Source: a virus. From it: 30,462 nucleotides of DNA. The notes beneath the pieces were generated by a model. It saw nothing but the letters and a program-made list of their open reading frames with translations. It did not search any database and was not told where the DNA came from. A program made the position numbers and the translations under genes. The stretch spans positions 1-30,462 of the IMG/VR virus record IMGVR_UViG_3300048026_000583. One strand, 5' to 3'. The stretch's first letter is position 1. Every line of letters begins with the position of its first letter. Shown here piece by piece: positions 3,445 to 17,111 of the stretch.

Positions 3445-6400
3445 TAGTGTTTACCTACCACAATTTCAACTATACCACGATCACCATCTTGTTTAGATCC
3501 TACAGCCTTACCAATTACAGTACCTACACTAGGATCATTATTAACAATTGCATAGCCTGCGATTGCACTAGTAACTAACAAGTCGCCCTTTTCAACTTTG
3601 CCAATTACTTTACAAGGCACTCTTCCTTGTAGTGCTAGTGCAGTAACATTTAATCCTGACAATGCTGAGTTCATTAAGTGTGCTGGATTAGTAGATACAA
3701 TACCAGCAACTTTTCTATCGCCTTTAATCTCTGTTGTTGTAATTTCTTCTTCGCCACCAAAAACTAGTACAGTGCCTGGCTCATACAAACTATCTGCTAA
3801 GTAATTCTCTGCTAAGTCAGCATAGTAAGCTTCGGTTGCAGTACCATAGAATGTTGTAGCATATATGTCTTTGTATTTAAATGTTGAGCTACCAATATCG
3901 TATGCATTTGTTACATCTGGCACTGCTCCGCTACTGCTAAAGATAAATGGTACAACACTTGATGTTGTAGCACTATCCGCTGTCACAATACCTATTTGTC
4001 CTGCCGCTGTTTTACCAGTATTAGCACCAATTGCTATAGCTGTACTTGCTGCACCTTTTTCGCCTGGTGCTTCAATAAAGCTAGAGTAGATCCAGTCAAC
4101 ACCTAGTACTGCTTCACCGTTAAAGTTTGAAGCATCTTGTAGTACACTTTCTGCAACACCTGTTCCGTCTATATTAACACTACCTGCAATTAATAAATCT
4201 GGTTTACCATTTGCACTAACACCTGTAGTACCTGTGGATCTAAGTATTTCACCTTGTGCAGGTGTTTTCATTATAACTGTCGTAGTATCTAGTGCTAATA
4301 TTTCGTATGATGAATCACCGCCAAGTATTAATGAGTTTACTTGTATACTGCCGTTTAGATCACTTTTAATAATACTGTTTACTTCACCTGTCTTAGTAAC
4401 GTTTGATACAGCATAAGTTCCTGTGCCTGTTTTAATTACAGCTTCACCTGGATCTGATCCTACTGCTATTGTTGTAGTCAAATCAGCATCACCTATTCCG
4501 CCGCCTTCTGAAACTACTGTAGCAAATGATATTTCATCAATGTCATTGTCACTGCTGTCGCCACTCCAGTTACCTAGCACAGTGCCGTCACTTACACGTT
4601 TGATTTTCTTAAGATCAAGTTGTCCATCTGATATTGTAGTCCAACCATTTGTTGTAGTAAACACATCGCTATCAAAAGCAACAACGCCCAAGTCTGCTTG
4701 ACTTATATTTGTTGCATTTATTCTTGTACTAGCAGAATTCATTGCTAGTTTACTTTGTGATATTTGCGCTGCACCGTTGACATCTGCGTTTACAATAGTG
4801 CCTACTTTGATTTGAACATCTAGGTCTACATGTCTGTCAGTTACAACACCGCCTACAATTGTTCTATTTCTGGATGGAGTAAATGATATATCACTATTTG
4901 CTGTTGTTATACCATTTGCCCAAACATCAATTGGGCCTTTTACAAGGGTACCTTGAGCACCACCTACAACACTTACTACATCTTGTGATTCGCCGCTACC
5001 TGCAGGCAATCCGTCTTGGAATGTTCCTGTAACAGGAGTGTATGTTATTTCAATAACATTACCTTCAACACCTACTGTAGTTTTCAAGTCAACAATAGTA
5101 CCTGTGGCGCCACTGTTGTTACCACTTATAGTTTGTCCTTGTACAAACGGTCCACTTACAATCGATCCTGCATTTATAATAAGTTTCTTTTCGCCTGTAG
5201 CAACAAACAAGTTACCTAAAGCATAGTCATTGTATTCAGAACTTCTTAGATCTTCTACTGATGTAGAACCAGCAATATTATCAACATATACCTTTGTTGC
5301 AGCATCACTATCTTGTGCCGGTGCTTTTAAGTTTGTAATTGTATTACTTGCAGCATTTAAATCACCCGTCATTGGTACAACACCATTTGGTGCAAGTACG
5401 CCTGGTCCTAGTTTGTTACTTACTGCTGTACCATTAACATCATATCCTAAACGTCTGTTTACATATCCCCGTACAGCACCTTCGGTTGGCACTGTGTCTG
5501 AAGCATTATCTGTCATTGCTGTATCTGTTGAGAATTCAGTAATAACAACACCACGTTTAAATCCTAGTCCGTCAACATCGCTAAGTGCAATACTTGCACT
5601 AAATGTAACTGTACCAGTACCTTGGTCAACTTGGAAGAATTTACCAACCTTGAAAATACCATTTTGATCTGTACTTACAAAGAATACTCTACCTTTGTTC
5701 TTTTCTACAACTTCATTAGCTTCACTCTTCTCTCCAGGAGGTCCAAATATAAAGTTTGGATAGTTTGATGCATTAAAGCCGCCTGTACCTATATCTAGGA
5801 AATCATGTCCTGTAGCTCTACAAGTTGAAATGTTAACTGTAACTGTACCTGTTGCTCCTGCTTGTAAACCTGCTCTAATAGTGTTAGTTAACCCTGACAA
5901 TACAACTGTGCCATGTATACCTGTTGCATTAGTAGAGTTAATTGTTTCTCCTACTTCAGCTAGATCAACAATAGCGTAAACATCATCTGAAGCTGATACT
6001 TGTTCTGCGCCTCCGCCTGTTACACCTCTATAGTTGTAAACATAATGTTTCTTACCTTTCCAAGAAATAATTGGAGCTTCAGTTAACGTCGAAGTTGACC
6101 AACCTACTGGTCTGTATGCTTCAGGTGTCCTTGCATTATTGTTAAGTCTAAATTTCTCGTTAGCATCTGCTACTGCTTGAAGTGCTAGTCTAACATCACC
6201 TGCTGTTGCACCTTTAGTAGTTCCAGTGCCGCTTAATGCTGTTTCCGCTGCTCTAGTATTATCGATAGTTAATCTAATATAATCATACCCACTATCAAAT
6301 CCTGCTTGGATACTATTAGCACCTAATGTTGTACCTAAACTGTTGCTAGTTAAAAATGATATTGATCTATAAAAGTTTCCTGGATTCTCATTAAACAATA

Positions 6401-15733: not shown

Positions 15734-15762
15734 ATTATACTATCTATTGTTTCATATGTCAA
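15734..15762 (-). promoter_or_regulatory. Consensus sigma70 promoter for the 2OG oxygenase
   Basis: TTGACA (15762-15757), a 17-base spacer and TATAAT (15739-15734) match both consensus hexamers exactly. The promoter lies between tRNA-Cys and the oxygenase, so the oxygenase does not depend on the tRNA transcript. The predicted start is near 15727, giving a 20-base leader with an SD. Confidence 0.85.
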
Positions 15763-15771
15763 CTAATAACT

Positions 15772-15845
15772 TGGAGAGGGTACCCGGAGTCGAACCGAGA
15801 TAAGCGGATTTGCAATCCGATGCATAGCCATTCTGCCATACCCTC
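15772..15845 (-). tRNA. tRNA-Cys (GCA)
   Basis: A 74-base tRNA with acceptor stem GAGGGTA paired fully to TACCCTC and an encoded CCA at 15774-15772. The anticodon loop TTGCAAA gives anticodon GCA. The discriminator is U73, the known identity base for tRNA-Cys. The T loop is TTCGACT. The outermost anticodon-stem pair looks mismatched (T opposite C). It is the last of four tRNAs and is separated from the CAU tRNA by one base. Confidence 0.93.
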
Positions 15846-15846
15846 C

Positions 15847-15923
15847 TGGTGGGCCCTGTTGGATTCGAACCAACGATCGATCCGTTATGAGCGGACAGCT
15901 TTAACCAACTAAGCTAAGAGCCC
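15847..15923 (-). tRNA. tRNA with CAU anticodon, probably tRNA-Ile2 (AUA-reading), otherwise elongator Met
   Basis: A 77-base tRNA with encoded CCA and A73, anticodon loop CTCATAA and T loop TTCGAAT. The acceptor GGGCTCT pairs with AGGGCCC. The standard G1-C72 pair rules out initiator tRNA. The C4-G69 pair and U5-G68 are closer to tRNA-Ile2, whose C34 is changed to lysidine by host TilS, than to elongator Met of E. coli. The upstream leader ORF contains three Ile codons, all AUA, and no internal Met, which also favours Ile2. The choice is an inference; structure alone cannot settle it. Confidence 0.88.
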
Positions 15924-15930
15924 GTAAAAT

Positions 15931-16007
15931 TGGTCGGAGCAGTAGGATTCGAACCTACGACCTCCTGGTCCCAAACCAGGCGCACTACCAAGCTGTGCTA
16001 TGCTCCG
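15931..16007 (-). tRNA. tRNA-Pro (UGG)
   Basis: A 77-base tRNA with acceptor CGGAGCA paired to TGCTCCG, including the C1-G72 pair typical of tRNA-Pro. The anticodon stem CCTGG/CCAGG holds the loop TTTGGGA (anticodon TGG), and the CCA is encoded. Its 5' end abuts the CCA of tRNA-Trp with no gap. UGG reads CCA and, when modified, other Pro codons. Confidence 0.95.
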
Positions 16008-16081
16008 TGGCGGGCGTGTAGGGAGTCGAACCCCAGCTTACGGTTTTGGAGACCGCCGTGCTACCGTAACACTTCACACCC
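16008..16081 (-). tRNA. tRNA-Trp (CCA)
   Basis: A 74-base tRNA with acceptor GGGTGTG paired to CACGCCC, discriminator G73 (a Trp identity base) and encoded CCA. The anticodon loop CTCCAAA gives anticodon CCA. It is the first tRNA of the cluster. Its 5' base lies 2 bases after the U-tract of an intrinsic terminator, so transcription must pass that terminator to make it. Confidence 0.94.
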
Positions 16082-16083
16082 AT

Positions 16084-16114
16084 AAAAAAAGCCCCTTGCT
16101 TTCGCTTGGGGCTT
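16084..16114 (-). terminator. Intrinsic terminator immediately upstream of the tRNA cluster
   Basis: On the minus strand AAGCCCC (16114-16108), a 12-base loop containing GCGAAAGC, GGGGCTT (16095-16089) and a run of seven T from 16090 form a G/C-rich hairpin with a U-tract. It stands between the leader ORF and tRNA-Trp. It could end read-through from the queD-glycosyltransferase operon, and it can also serve as the attenuator described separately. Confidence 0.85.
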
Positions 16115-16170
16115 GTTTAAAACTTAATGTAAATAAATCACATCAAAACAAACCCCTCCCAAAAGGTGGG
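16084..16170 (-). promoter_or_regulatory. Predicted transcription attenuator (leader-peptide type) controlling tRNA genes
   Basis: Four RNA segments can be drawn as in amino-acid operon attenuators. Segment 1 is CCCACC (16170-16165), over the Cys-Pro-Pro codons. Segment 2 is GGAGGGGTTTGTTT (16159-16146), at the end of the ORF. Segment 3 is AAACAAGCCCC (16118-16108). Segment 4 is GGGGCTT (16095-16089) with its U-run. Segment 2 GGGGTTTGTTT pairs with segment 3 over 11 continuous base pairs with one G-U, which would break the 3:4 terminator. Segments 1:2 pair through CCC-A-CC/GG-A-GGG around one A-A mismatch. A ribosome stalled at AUA-UGG-UGC would cover segment 1 and favour 2:3. A ribosome at the stop codon would cover segment 2 and favour termination. 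Confidence 0.7.
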
Positions 16171-16208
16171 CACCATATATTAGATATTATTTGTCTTGTG
16201 TTCTTCAT
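16143..16208 (-). CDS. Putative 21-aa leader peptide of the tRNA operon
   Basis: The frame begins ATG 16208 and ends TGA 16143. An AAGGA ribosome-binding site lies about 9-10 bases upstream and a sigma70-type promoter about 26 bases before the ATG. The peptide begins MKNTRQIISNI and continues WCPPFGRGLF. Its three Ile codons are all AUA, and codons 11-15 are AUA UGG UGC CCA CCU (Ile Trp Cys Pro Pro). These match the four tRNA genes that follow (CAU/Ile2, Trp, Cys, Pro). The peptide itself probably has no function, and its translation would be the sensor. It is too short for coding statistics, so the support comes from start signals, codon content and the RNA structures around it. Confidence 0.7.
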   Translation of the reverse strand: MKNTRQIISNIWCPPFGRGLF

Positions 16209-16233
16209 TACTCTAATTCCTTATTGTGTATTT

Positions 16234-16262
16234 ACTATAACACACCTATTTATCGTTGTCAA
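16234..16262 (-). promoter_or_regulatory. Strong sigma70-type promoter of the tRNA leader, with embedded late box
   Basis: TTGACA (16262-16257), a 17-base spacer and TATAGT (16239-16234) preceded by TGT form an extended -10 promoter. Transcription would start near 16227, 19 bases before the leader ATG. The spacer also contains GATAAATA (16254-16247), one base from the T4 late consensus, so the tRNA operon might also be transcribed late. The late use is speculative. Confidence 0.8.
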
Positions 16263-16265
16263 CCA

Positions 16266-17111
16266 CTATTTCCAGTTTCTTTGAACCCAGTCGTCTTTAC
16301 AATAATGTGGATTAGGATCTCCGTGAAAGACAGCAATAGATGTTTCATCTAGGAGAGCAGGTTCTCCTTTAGTTACAAAATCCCTAGTACCTCTTGGACC
16401 TCCAGTCATTTGAGGCTTTCCTCTCATTTCCCATTTATAACTTTGTATCCAATCTACAGGCCAATAATTATATTCATCTTTTATTGAATGCCGTATCCAA
16501 TCTTGATCTCCTTGGAACCTTCTACTGATATTATTTTTATCTGCCATATAATCATGATAGACTTGAGCATGTTGTCCAGTGTTTAGTCTAAAAATACTAG
16601 AATTAAATTTATCATAATTGCGTACAACATGCCTATTAAAGTCTTGTATGATTATAAATTCGTTTGGCTTGTATGAAAATAGTTTATTAATGTTTTTAAA
16701 AATTATCATATCAAGATCGAGAAACAATACAACACCGTCTAATCCTAAATTAGGATTAAAGAACATGGGCTTGTACCACCATCCTTCTATTCCAGGCATT
16801 AGTTCTAAATCTATTACTCGAATACCTGGAACTAGATTAGCTGGTTGTTCAGTAAAGCAAATAAATTCATGATTGATAGTTAAATTACGCTGAACCATAT
16901 GATATAGTTTGTTTACATATTCAGGGCCGTATTTGTCTCCCCATTTTAAACAAACTACATAGTATTTTTTATTAGGATCTGGTTCATTATATATTTCAGG
17001 CTTTCGAGCTTCGGACTGAGGTGCGTTGGCACTTGGAGTTATACCCTTGCTAGCATTTTTCCTCGCCTTCCGTTGTGCTTTGGTTTCGCCTGGAATATAT
17101 TTTTTAGCCAT
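16266..17111 (-). CDS. Glycosyltransferase-like protein (GT-A fold), 281 aa
   Basis: Residues 1-45 are a basic, probably disordered leader (MAKKYIPGETKAQRKARKNA). The core starts near residue 50 with YYVVCLKWGDKYG, continues with HEFICFTEQP, and has a DxD motif in VVLFLDLDMIIF (Asp132, Asp134), the metal/nucleotide-sugar site of GT-A enzymes. QGDQDWIR and AVFHGDPNPH near the C-terminus resemble acceptor-site and metal-binding His segments of GT8-like families. There is no membrane segment. The likely target, whether virion protein, DNA or host glycan, is unknown. Its ATG overlaps the stop of the QueD gene by 8 bases, so the two are co-translated. Downstream lies the promoter and terminator of the tRNA leader. 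Confidence 0.75.
   Translation of the reverse strand: MAKKYIPGETKAQRKARKNASKGITPSANAPQSEARKPEIYNEPDPNKKYYVVCLKWGDKYGPEYVNKLYHMVQRNLTINHEFICFTEQPANLVPGIRVIDLELMPGIEGWWYKPMFFNPNLGLDGVVLFLDLDMIIFKNINKLFSYKPNEFIIIQDFNRHVVRNYDKFNSSIFRLNTGQHAQVYHDYMADKNNISRRFQGDQDWIRHSIKDEYNYWPVDWIQSYKWEMRGKPQMTGGPRGTRDFVTKGEPALLDETSIAVFHGDPNPHYCKDDWVQRNWK

Follow-up and report, generated by a model that had tools for sequence, protein, structure and literature searches.

A compact cassette in a virus record from IMG/VR has the organization of a ribosome-mediated transcription attenuator, in which the phage's own tRNA operon is the output and the availability of the isoacceptors encoded there is the signal. We give this reading a probability of about 0.87; it rests on no RNA, ribosome or reporter data. 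The parts of the cassette, their conservation, the mutually exclusive helices and the match between leader codons and downstream tRNA genes were observed directly. Comparison with relatives (codon tracking, and conservation of the ORF and of the helices) supports the attenuator that a first-pass annotation of this DNA had proposed, with termination, stalling and feedback remaining inferences. The record (IMGVR_UViG_3300048026_000583; 30,462 nt) was analysed over its whole 30-kb length and is referred to below as the window.

A leader and four tRNA genes on one strand

The whole cassette lies on the minus strand at 16262..15772 and consists of a promoter, a short ORF, two helices that exclude each other and four tRNA genes (Table 1). 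The first-pass annotation had described a TTGACA-17-TATAGT promoter, an AAGGA-preceded ORF of 21 codons whose three isoleucine codons are all AUA and which contains the run AUA UGG UGC CCA CCU, an 11-bp pairing at the end of the ORF, and a terminator using the same CCCC arm. All of these are present, the promoter at 16262..16234 (-), the AUA codons at positions 7, 8 and 11 and the codon run at codons 11-15. A TG also precedes the -10 element. The tRNA-Trp gene had been placed just after the U-tract, ahead of Pro, CAU and Cys, and indeed starts at 16081 where the U-tract ends at 16084.

Table 1. Positions of the leader elements and tRNA genes in the window
Feature	Position	Strand	Remarks
Sigma-70-type promoter	16234..16262	-	-35 TTGACA 16262..16257, 17-nt spacer, -10 TATAGT 16239..16234
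Shine-Dalgarno-like AAGGA	16218..16222	-	9 nt 5' of AUG
Leader ORF MKNTRQIISNIWCPPFGRGLF	16143..16208	-	21 codons, stop UGA; ORF kept in 69 distinct relatives
Sensor codons	16164..16190	-	AUA 7 and 8, AUA 11, UGG 12, UGC 13, CCA 14, CCU 15
Segment 2 GGGGUUUGUUU, antiterminator 5' strand	16146..16156	-	overlaps final leader codons
Segment 3 AAACAAGCCCC	16108..16118	-	common to antiterminator (2:3) and terminator (3:4)
Intrinsic terminator	16084..16114	-	stem AAGCCCC/GGGGCUU, tip GC-GAAA-GC, 7-nt U-tract
tRNA-Trp (CCA), first cluster gene	16008..16081	-	
tRNA-Pro (UGG)	15931..16007	-	
tRNA, anticodon CAU	15847..15923	-	ARAGORN annotation Met
tRNA-Cys (GCA), last cluster gene	15772..15845	-	

The sensor codons of the window match the tRNAs encoded downstream, namely Trp, Cys, Pro and the CAU tRNA of Ile2 type. 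The last of these is probably a tRNA-Ile2 that reads AUA, with its lysidine modification inferred: its only E. coli match is annotated as tRNA-Ile, and an AUA codon occurs in all 10 leader cores (the core being the 10 codons around UGG) whose cluster holds a CAU tRNA. In a random 20-codon ORF with the codon usage of this phage, AUA, UGG, UGY and CCN occur together with p = 0.005; a further requirement of three or more AUA codons lowers this to ~1e-4.

Two helices that share segment 3 can form in the window leader. Pairing of GGGGTTTGTTT (16156..16146) with AAACAAGCCCC (16118..16108) spans 11 bp and gives a stand-alone duplex of -17.4 kcal/mol, a value matched by 1.9% of shuffled segments. The terminator hairpin (16114..16089) has an energy of -14.7 kcal/mol, and seven U residues occupy 16090..16084; a simple terminator scan did not detect this terminator in the window, probably because of its internal loop. 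As a whole, the leader folds better than all of 200 shuffles (z = -3.4). Masked folding with a ribosome at UGG leaves 2:3 present and the terminator absent, and with a ribosome at the stop codon it leaves the terminator alone. The ribosome-free fold depends on whether segment 4 has already been made; before that point 2:3 is favoured, which suggests that the untranslated state may leak. The weakest detail of the first-pass annotation was a competing CCCACC/GGGAGGG hairpin said to be able to hold the antiterminator strand. Segment 2 is paired upstream in the ribosome-free minimum-energy fold, but its partner is a different one.

Conservation among relatives

Homologous loci were found at 131 positions in viral contigs, and from these came 69 distinct leaders whose tRNA cluster could be read. 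The IMG/VR scans comprised one for a terminator before tRNA-Trp and two for the antiterminator DNA that made no demand for a tRNA or for sensor codons. The terminator scan required tRNA-Trp and its ORF picker required UGG; the two antiterminator scans required no tRNA. A scan that included the sensor codons was the source of only three of the 69 leaders (the window, L088 and L089). Every one of the 69 leaders contains UGG and has tRNA-Trp as the first gene of its cluster. Searches with neighbouring genes (glycosyltransferase, 2OG oxygenase, UvdE) recovered few tRNA-bearing loci, since the cassette sits elsewhere in most relatives, and it was the motif scans that found the family. A covariance model identified a single full-length strong site per record in 19/19 phage records searched.

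The viruses that carry the leader are, as far as their sequences allow a judgement, probably uncultured marine jumbo phages. The terminase of a leader-bearing 275-kb relative is nearest to that of the Pseudomonas jumbo phage PA5oct (54% identity), which suggests this assignment. Of six long records searched for a T4-like capsid, five lacked it, and the sole positive one had been reached via its glycosyltransferase alone. The window itself encodes a UvdE endonuclease (PF03851), a tryptophan halogenase, a QueD-like protein, a glycosyltransferase and an ATP-dependent DNA ligase. Between tRNA-Cys and a 2OG-Fe(II) oxygenase gene it carries a perfect TTGACA-17-TATAAT promoter (15762..15734, -), so the oxygenase gene is probably transcribed separately. 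Two relatives, L002/L088 and L089, have the same neighbourhood as the window, with different leader codons and different tRNA sets. The L089 homologue of the window glycosyltransferase (16266-17111) is ORF 5351-6214, and a tRNA-Arg(ACG) gene lies inside it at 5429-5505 (+), so that the frame runs through the tRNA gene.

Whether homologous leaders keep the ORF had been posed as a test, and it is kept across the 69 distinct relatives. An SD-like motif (loose pattern) occurs in 69/69 of them and a promoter-like TTGAC..TA pattern lies upstream in 61/69. Peptide length is 17-22 codons in 67 of the 69 leaders and 15 in two that have an earlier stop, before GGGG. In L214/L190 and L200 a UAG stop stands directly 5' of GGGG, earlier than usual, with the downstream RNA kept. 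Seven leaders (L255, L267, L282, L270, L277, L286 and L303) have an extra ~70-100 nt between the terminator and tRNA-Trp; in L255 this stretch contains a perfect inverted repeat, ACTACACTACA...TGTAGTGTAGT, and an Rfam search with it returned no fitting family. In L302, ARAGORN calls a tRNA whose anticodon, UUA, would pair with the stop codon UAA; it lies 78 nt 5' of the leader.

Both helices occur in all 67 leaders that were folded, with energies of -13.7 to -21.7 kcal/mol for the terminator and -9.8 to -22.8 kcal/mol for the antiterminator. These are the leaders passed by an automatic terminator finder (67/69); the two that failed, L175 and L226, show this terminator layout too when inspected by eye. 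The 2:3 and 3:4 pairings, whose retention in related phages had been in question, are thus kept in every foldable relative. The geometry is also preserved: in most relatives UGG lies 8-10 codons 5' of the stop, and segment 2 starts 10-21 nt from UGG. Exchanging segment-3 partners among phages weakens the mean 2:3 energy from -16.11 to -15.55 (p = 4.5e-4), and exchanging terminator arms weakens the mean 3:4 energy from -18.50 to -15.74 (p = 5e-5). When 20 sequences were aligned, 84% of the 2:3 cells paired in register, compared with 25-59% when the strands are slid. Compensatory changes, which the first-pass annotation had asked for, exist in the helices of this alignment but are few. Because both strands of 2:3 are highly conserved, its covariation by column is modest: 5 cells differ on both sides, a number reached in 38/500 shuffles.

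Leader codons and the tRNA genes behind them

The first-pass annotation had asked whether the leader codons change together with the downstream tRNA set. They do, to the level of synonymous codons. With Trp excluded, 120 of the 131 tRNAs in the leaders' own clusters have a cognate codon in the core; permutation within leader types gives 88.9 ± 3.6, with a maximum of 104 in 20,000 (stratified p = 5e-5). Only 32 of 121 tRNAs in leaderless upstream clusters on the same contigs match the core. A Fisher test on the own and leaderless counts gives 4e-28, but it treats relatives as independent, and we therefore rely on the stratified permutation. The leaders are related and their counts not independent, a dependence that stratification corrects only partially. 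Judged against permuted sets and leaderless clusters, the leader meets the attenuator criterion that regulatory codons be related to the function of the operon.

The association is sharpest where synonymous codons can be distinguished. Where the cluster includes an AUA-reading tRNA (CAU or UAU), 17/17 cores contain AUA and 0/17 contain AUU/AUC; where it does not, the counts are 7/52 and 30/52. Serine UCN codons track tRNA-Ser(UGA), but AGY codons do not. Tyr codons occur in 6/6 leaders with tRNA-Tyr and 25/63 without, one of the latter being L307 (Tyr-Trp-Tyr), scored as lacking the gene though a tRNA-Tyr lies 603 nt downstream. For Gly(UCC), the core matches in 4/4 cases behind a leader versus 4/19 that are not. 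Permutation inside leader types returned p values of 5e-5 for Ile-AUA, 5e-5 for Tyr, 5.5e-4 for Cys, 7.5e-4 for Ser UCN and 1.3e-3 for Gly; the Pro and Arg associations are marginal, and that of Gln, which is explained by leader type, vanishes once stratified.

Individual leaders illustrate the replacement of codons as the gene set changes. At the position where the window, which has no tRNA-Tyr, reads AAU/UUU, its sister L089, which has that gene, reads UAU/UAC. L251 (Trp, Pro, Ser, Cys) carries AAU AUU ACU UGU UGG CCA UCA; L284, with the same set plus tRNA-Ile(UAU), carries UCG AUA AUA UGU UGG CCA UCA; and L264 (CAU, UAU and Gly, no Cys) carries UCG AUA AUA GGU UGG CCA UCA, the Cys codon UGU of the other two having become the Gly codon GGU. 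Similarly, AAU precedes UGG in L295 (Trp, CAU) and GGU stands there in L310, where Gly is added, while UGU UGG UGC CCA UCA in L224 (Trp, Pro, Ser, Cys) corresponds to CGU UGG UGC CCG GAA in L225, which has Arg(ACG) and Glu.

Strong as it is overall, the match is imperfect. For 11 of the 131 own-cluster tRNAs the core offers no cognate codon (for example Arg(GCG), 0/3), and in some leaders Cys or Pro codons persist where tRNA-Trp is the only tRNA gene found downstream. L253 is such a case; neither tRNA-Cys nor tRNA-Pro was found in the 67-kb record of its phage. A second, leaderless tRNA cluster lies upstream of the controlled one in L326, L328, L329, L331 and at many other leader loci, its recurrent and typical members being Ser GCU/ACU, Gly UCC, Thr UGU, Leu UAG and Asn. 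Only one subset of the tRNAs of these phages is therefore under leader control.

Three other explanations have to be set against these data. It is scarcely credible that the hairpin merely terminates an upstream gene, the ORF being a chance frame and the codon match luck: on this window alone the four codon classes could fall together in a 20-codon ORF with the probability given above, but a promoter and an ORF of its own accompany the terminator in 69 distinct leaders, always before tRNA-Trp, and with the codon-tRNA association at p = 5e-5 the comparative data already refute luck in practice. We regard as very improbable a conserved RNA that acts without translation, as a protein-binding antiterminator or a small RNA, with the peptide frame secondary. 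Segments 2 and 3 and their linker are better conserved than the peptide, as such an RNA would have it, and several Rfam cis-regulatory and sRNA models match weakly, below threshold; yet the ORF, the SD-like motif and the stop beside segment 2 are all kept, and the codons follow a tRNA set in a way that is readable only by decoding.

The leader might also be a real attenuator that senses amino-acid starvation as trp and his leaders do, with tRNA genes merely happening to be under its control. A ribosome stalls on any shortage of aminoacyl-tRNA regardless of its cause, Cys or Pro codons persist in some leaders without matching tRNAs, and Elf and Ehrenberg (PMC1183508) provide a reason for a plain amino-acid sensor to use the codons of scarce isoacceptors. 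That reason leaves unexplained, however, why the choice follows the genes behind the leader. Nor does starvation account for the replacement of AUU/AUC by AUA in precisely those leaders whose operon includes an AUA-reading tRNA, for UCN rather than AGY tracking tRNA-Ser(UGA), or for Gly(UCC) counting only behind a leader, and a shortage of amino acid is not relieved by extra tRNA. We consider this explanation unlikely. The choice among synonymous codons (AUA versus AUU/AUC, UCN versus AGY) favours a sensor of tRNAs over one of amino acids, so the earlier proposal of shortage sensing stands, refined in that what is sensed is the isoacceptors and not the amino acids.

Proposed control and comparison with known systems

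The leader satisfies the further criteria of an attenuator: a Shine-Dalgarno sequence and short ORF with regulatory codons, exclusive helices sharing segment 3, and a suitable geometry of stall and stop sites. Translation, termination, stalling, read-through and feedback are inferred from here on. A ribosome would trail RNA polymerase along the leader ORF. With charged Trp, Cys, Pro and AUA-reading tRNAs in ample supply, it would reach the stop just past segment 2 and cover that segment, leaving segment 3 free for the 3:4 terminator, and the tRNA genes would be off. Were one of these tRNAs scarce, the ribosome would stall at the cognate codon, some 8-10 codons before the stop; segment 2 would then be exposed, 2:3 could form while RNA polymerase moves on, and the tRNA genes would be transcribed until supply recovers.

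The purpose of such a switch is more speculative. Tentatively, and with somewhat less than even confidence, we suggest that this isoacceptor-specific sensor gauges decoding capacity for just the tRNAs supplied by its operon, brings in substitutes once those of the host run low, for instance through cleavage by host tRNA nucleases, and so acts as an inducible counter-defence with feedback. The tRNA-Tyr of T5 and SP15 acts against retron-Eco7 (PMC11555353), and anticodon-loop changes let phage tRNAs evade a host defence that depletes tRNAs (PMC10264068). For T5-like phages a need for particular tRNAs under destruction by host defences has been shown (PMC11555353), which gives the switch a plausible use. 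The findings bear on the long-standing question of why phages carry tRNA genes and when these are expressed: a switch whose codons are exchanged with the gain and loss of tRNA genes indicates which tRNAs are limiting in infection, and points to a phage that responds to supply and does not express these tRNAs constitutively.

The first-pass annotation knew of no tRNA operon controlled in this way, and none was found in GenBank phages, GTDB, Rfam or the open-access literature at the scope searched. In GenBank phages the leader was not found at the sensitivity used, the only similarities being to tRNA bodies or short and due to chance. A strict pattern had 0 matches in GTDB genomes; five matches to a loose pattern were dismissed as chance, none being followed by a tRNA or in leader context. 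The covariance model had no match in the two bacterial genomes, the only ones searched with it. Although PA5oct and Sinorhizobium phage Phosso carry tRNAs, neither has a leader of this kind, and terminator-like sites in the tRNA region of PA5oct do not suggest one. In the open-access literature we found no leader-peptide attenuator acting on tRNA genes; PMC9693318 cites 1980 work by Goldfarb and Daniel on how transcription of the phage T4 tRNA operon is controlled. Among the Rfam amino-acid leaders (Trp_leader, Thr_leader, Phe_leader) none met the gathering score of 55, the best being Thr_leader (RF00506) on the right strand and span, with 17.5 bits (E 0.46) in the window and 23.6 bits (E 0.035) in L255. 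A T-box covariance model gave no match at gathering or at E up to 10. The class of mechanism is known; what is new, as far as our searches reach, is that its output is tRNAs, that its sensor reads isoacceptors through several codons and that it has coevolved with the gene set.

The tRNAs of T5/SP15-type phages resemble those described here in restoring a supply that the host may lose, and Tyr is also among the leader-cluster sets; in contrast, what could be consulted of PMC11555353 and PMC10264068 describes a very strong promoter and no conditional switch. T-box riboswitches likewise attenuate transcription according to tRNA charging, but they bind uncharged tRNA directly by a specifier loop and do not need translation, unlike the phage leader. 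A parallel in architecture is provided by the enterobacterial attenuators of the trp/his/thr type (Rfam RF00513, RF00506, RF01859), which share with the phage leader a short SD-preceded ORF carrying regulatory codons, a stall site 5' of segment 2, and a 2:3 antiterminator opposed to a 3:4 terminator with a U-tract. The phage leader differs from them in that its output is tRNA genes and not biosynthetic or synthetase genes, in that it codes for several amino acids at once and shifts them with gene content, and in that it is phage-borne, reaches no Rfam family and chooses codons at the level of the isoacceptor. On our reading, attenuation thereby extends from the enzymes of amino-acid metabolism to the tRNAs themselves, at isoacceptor resolution.
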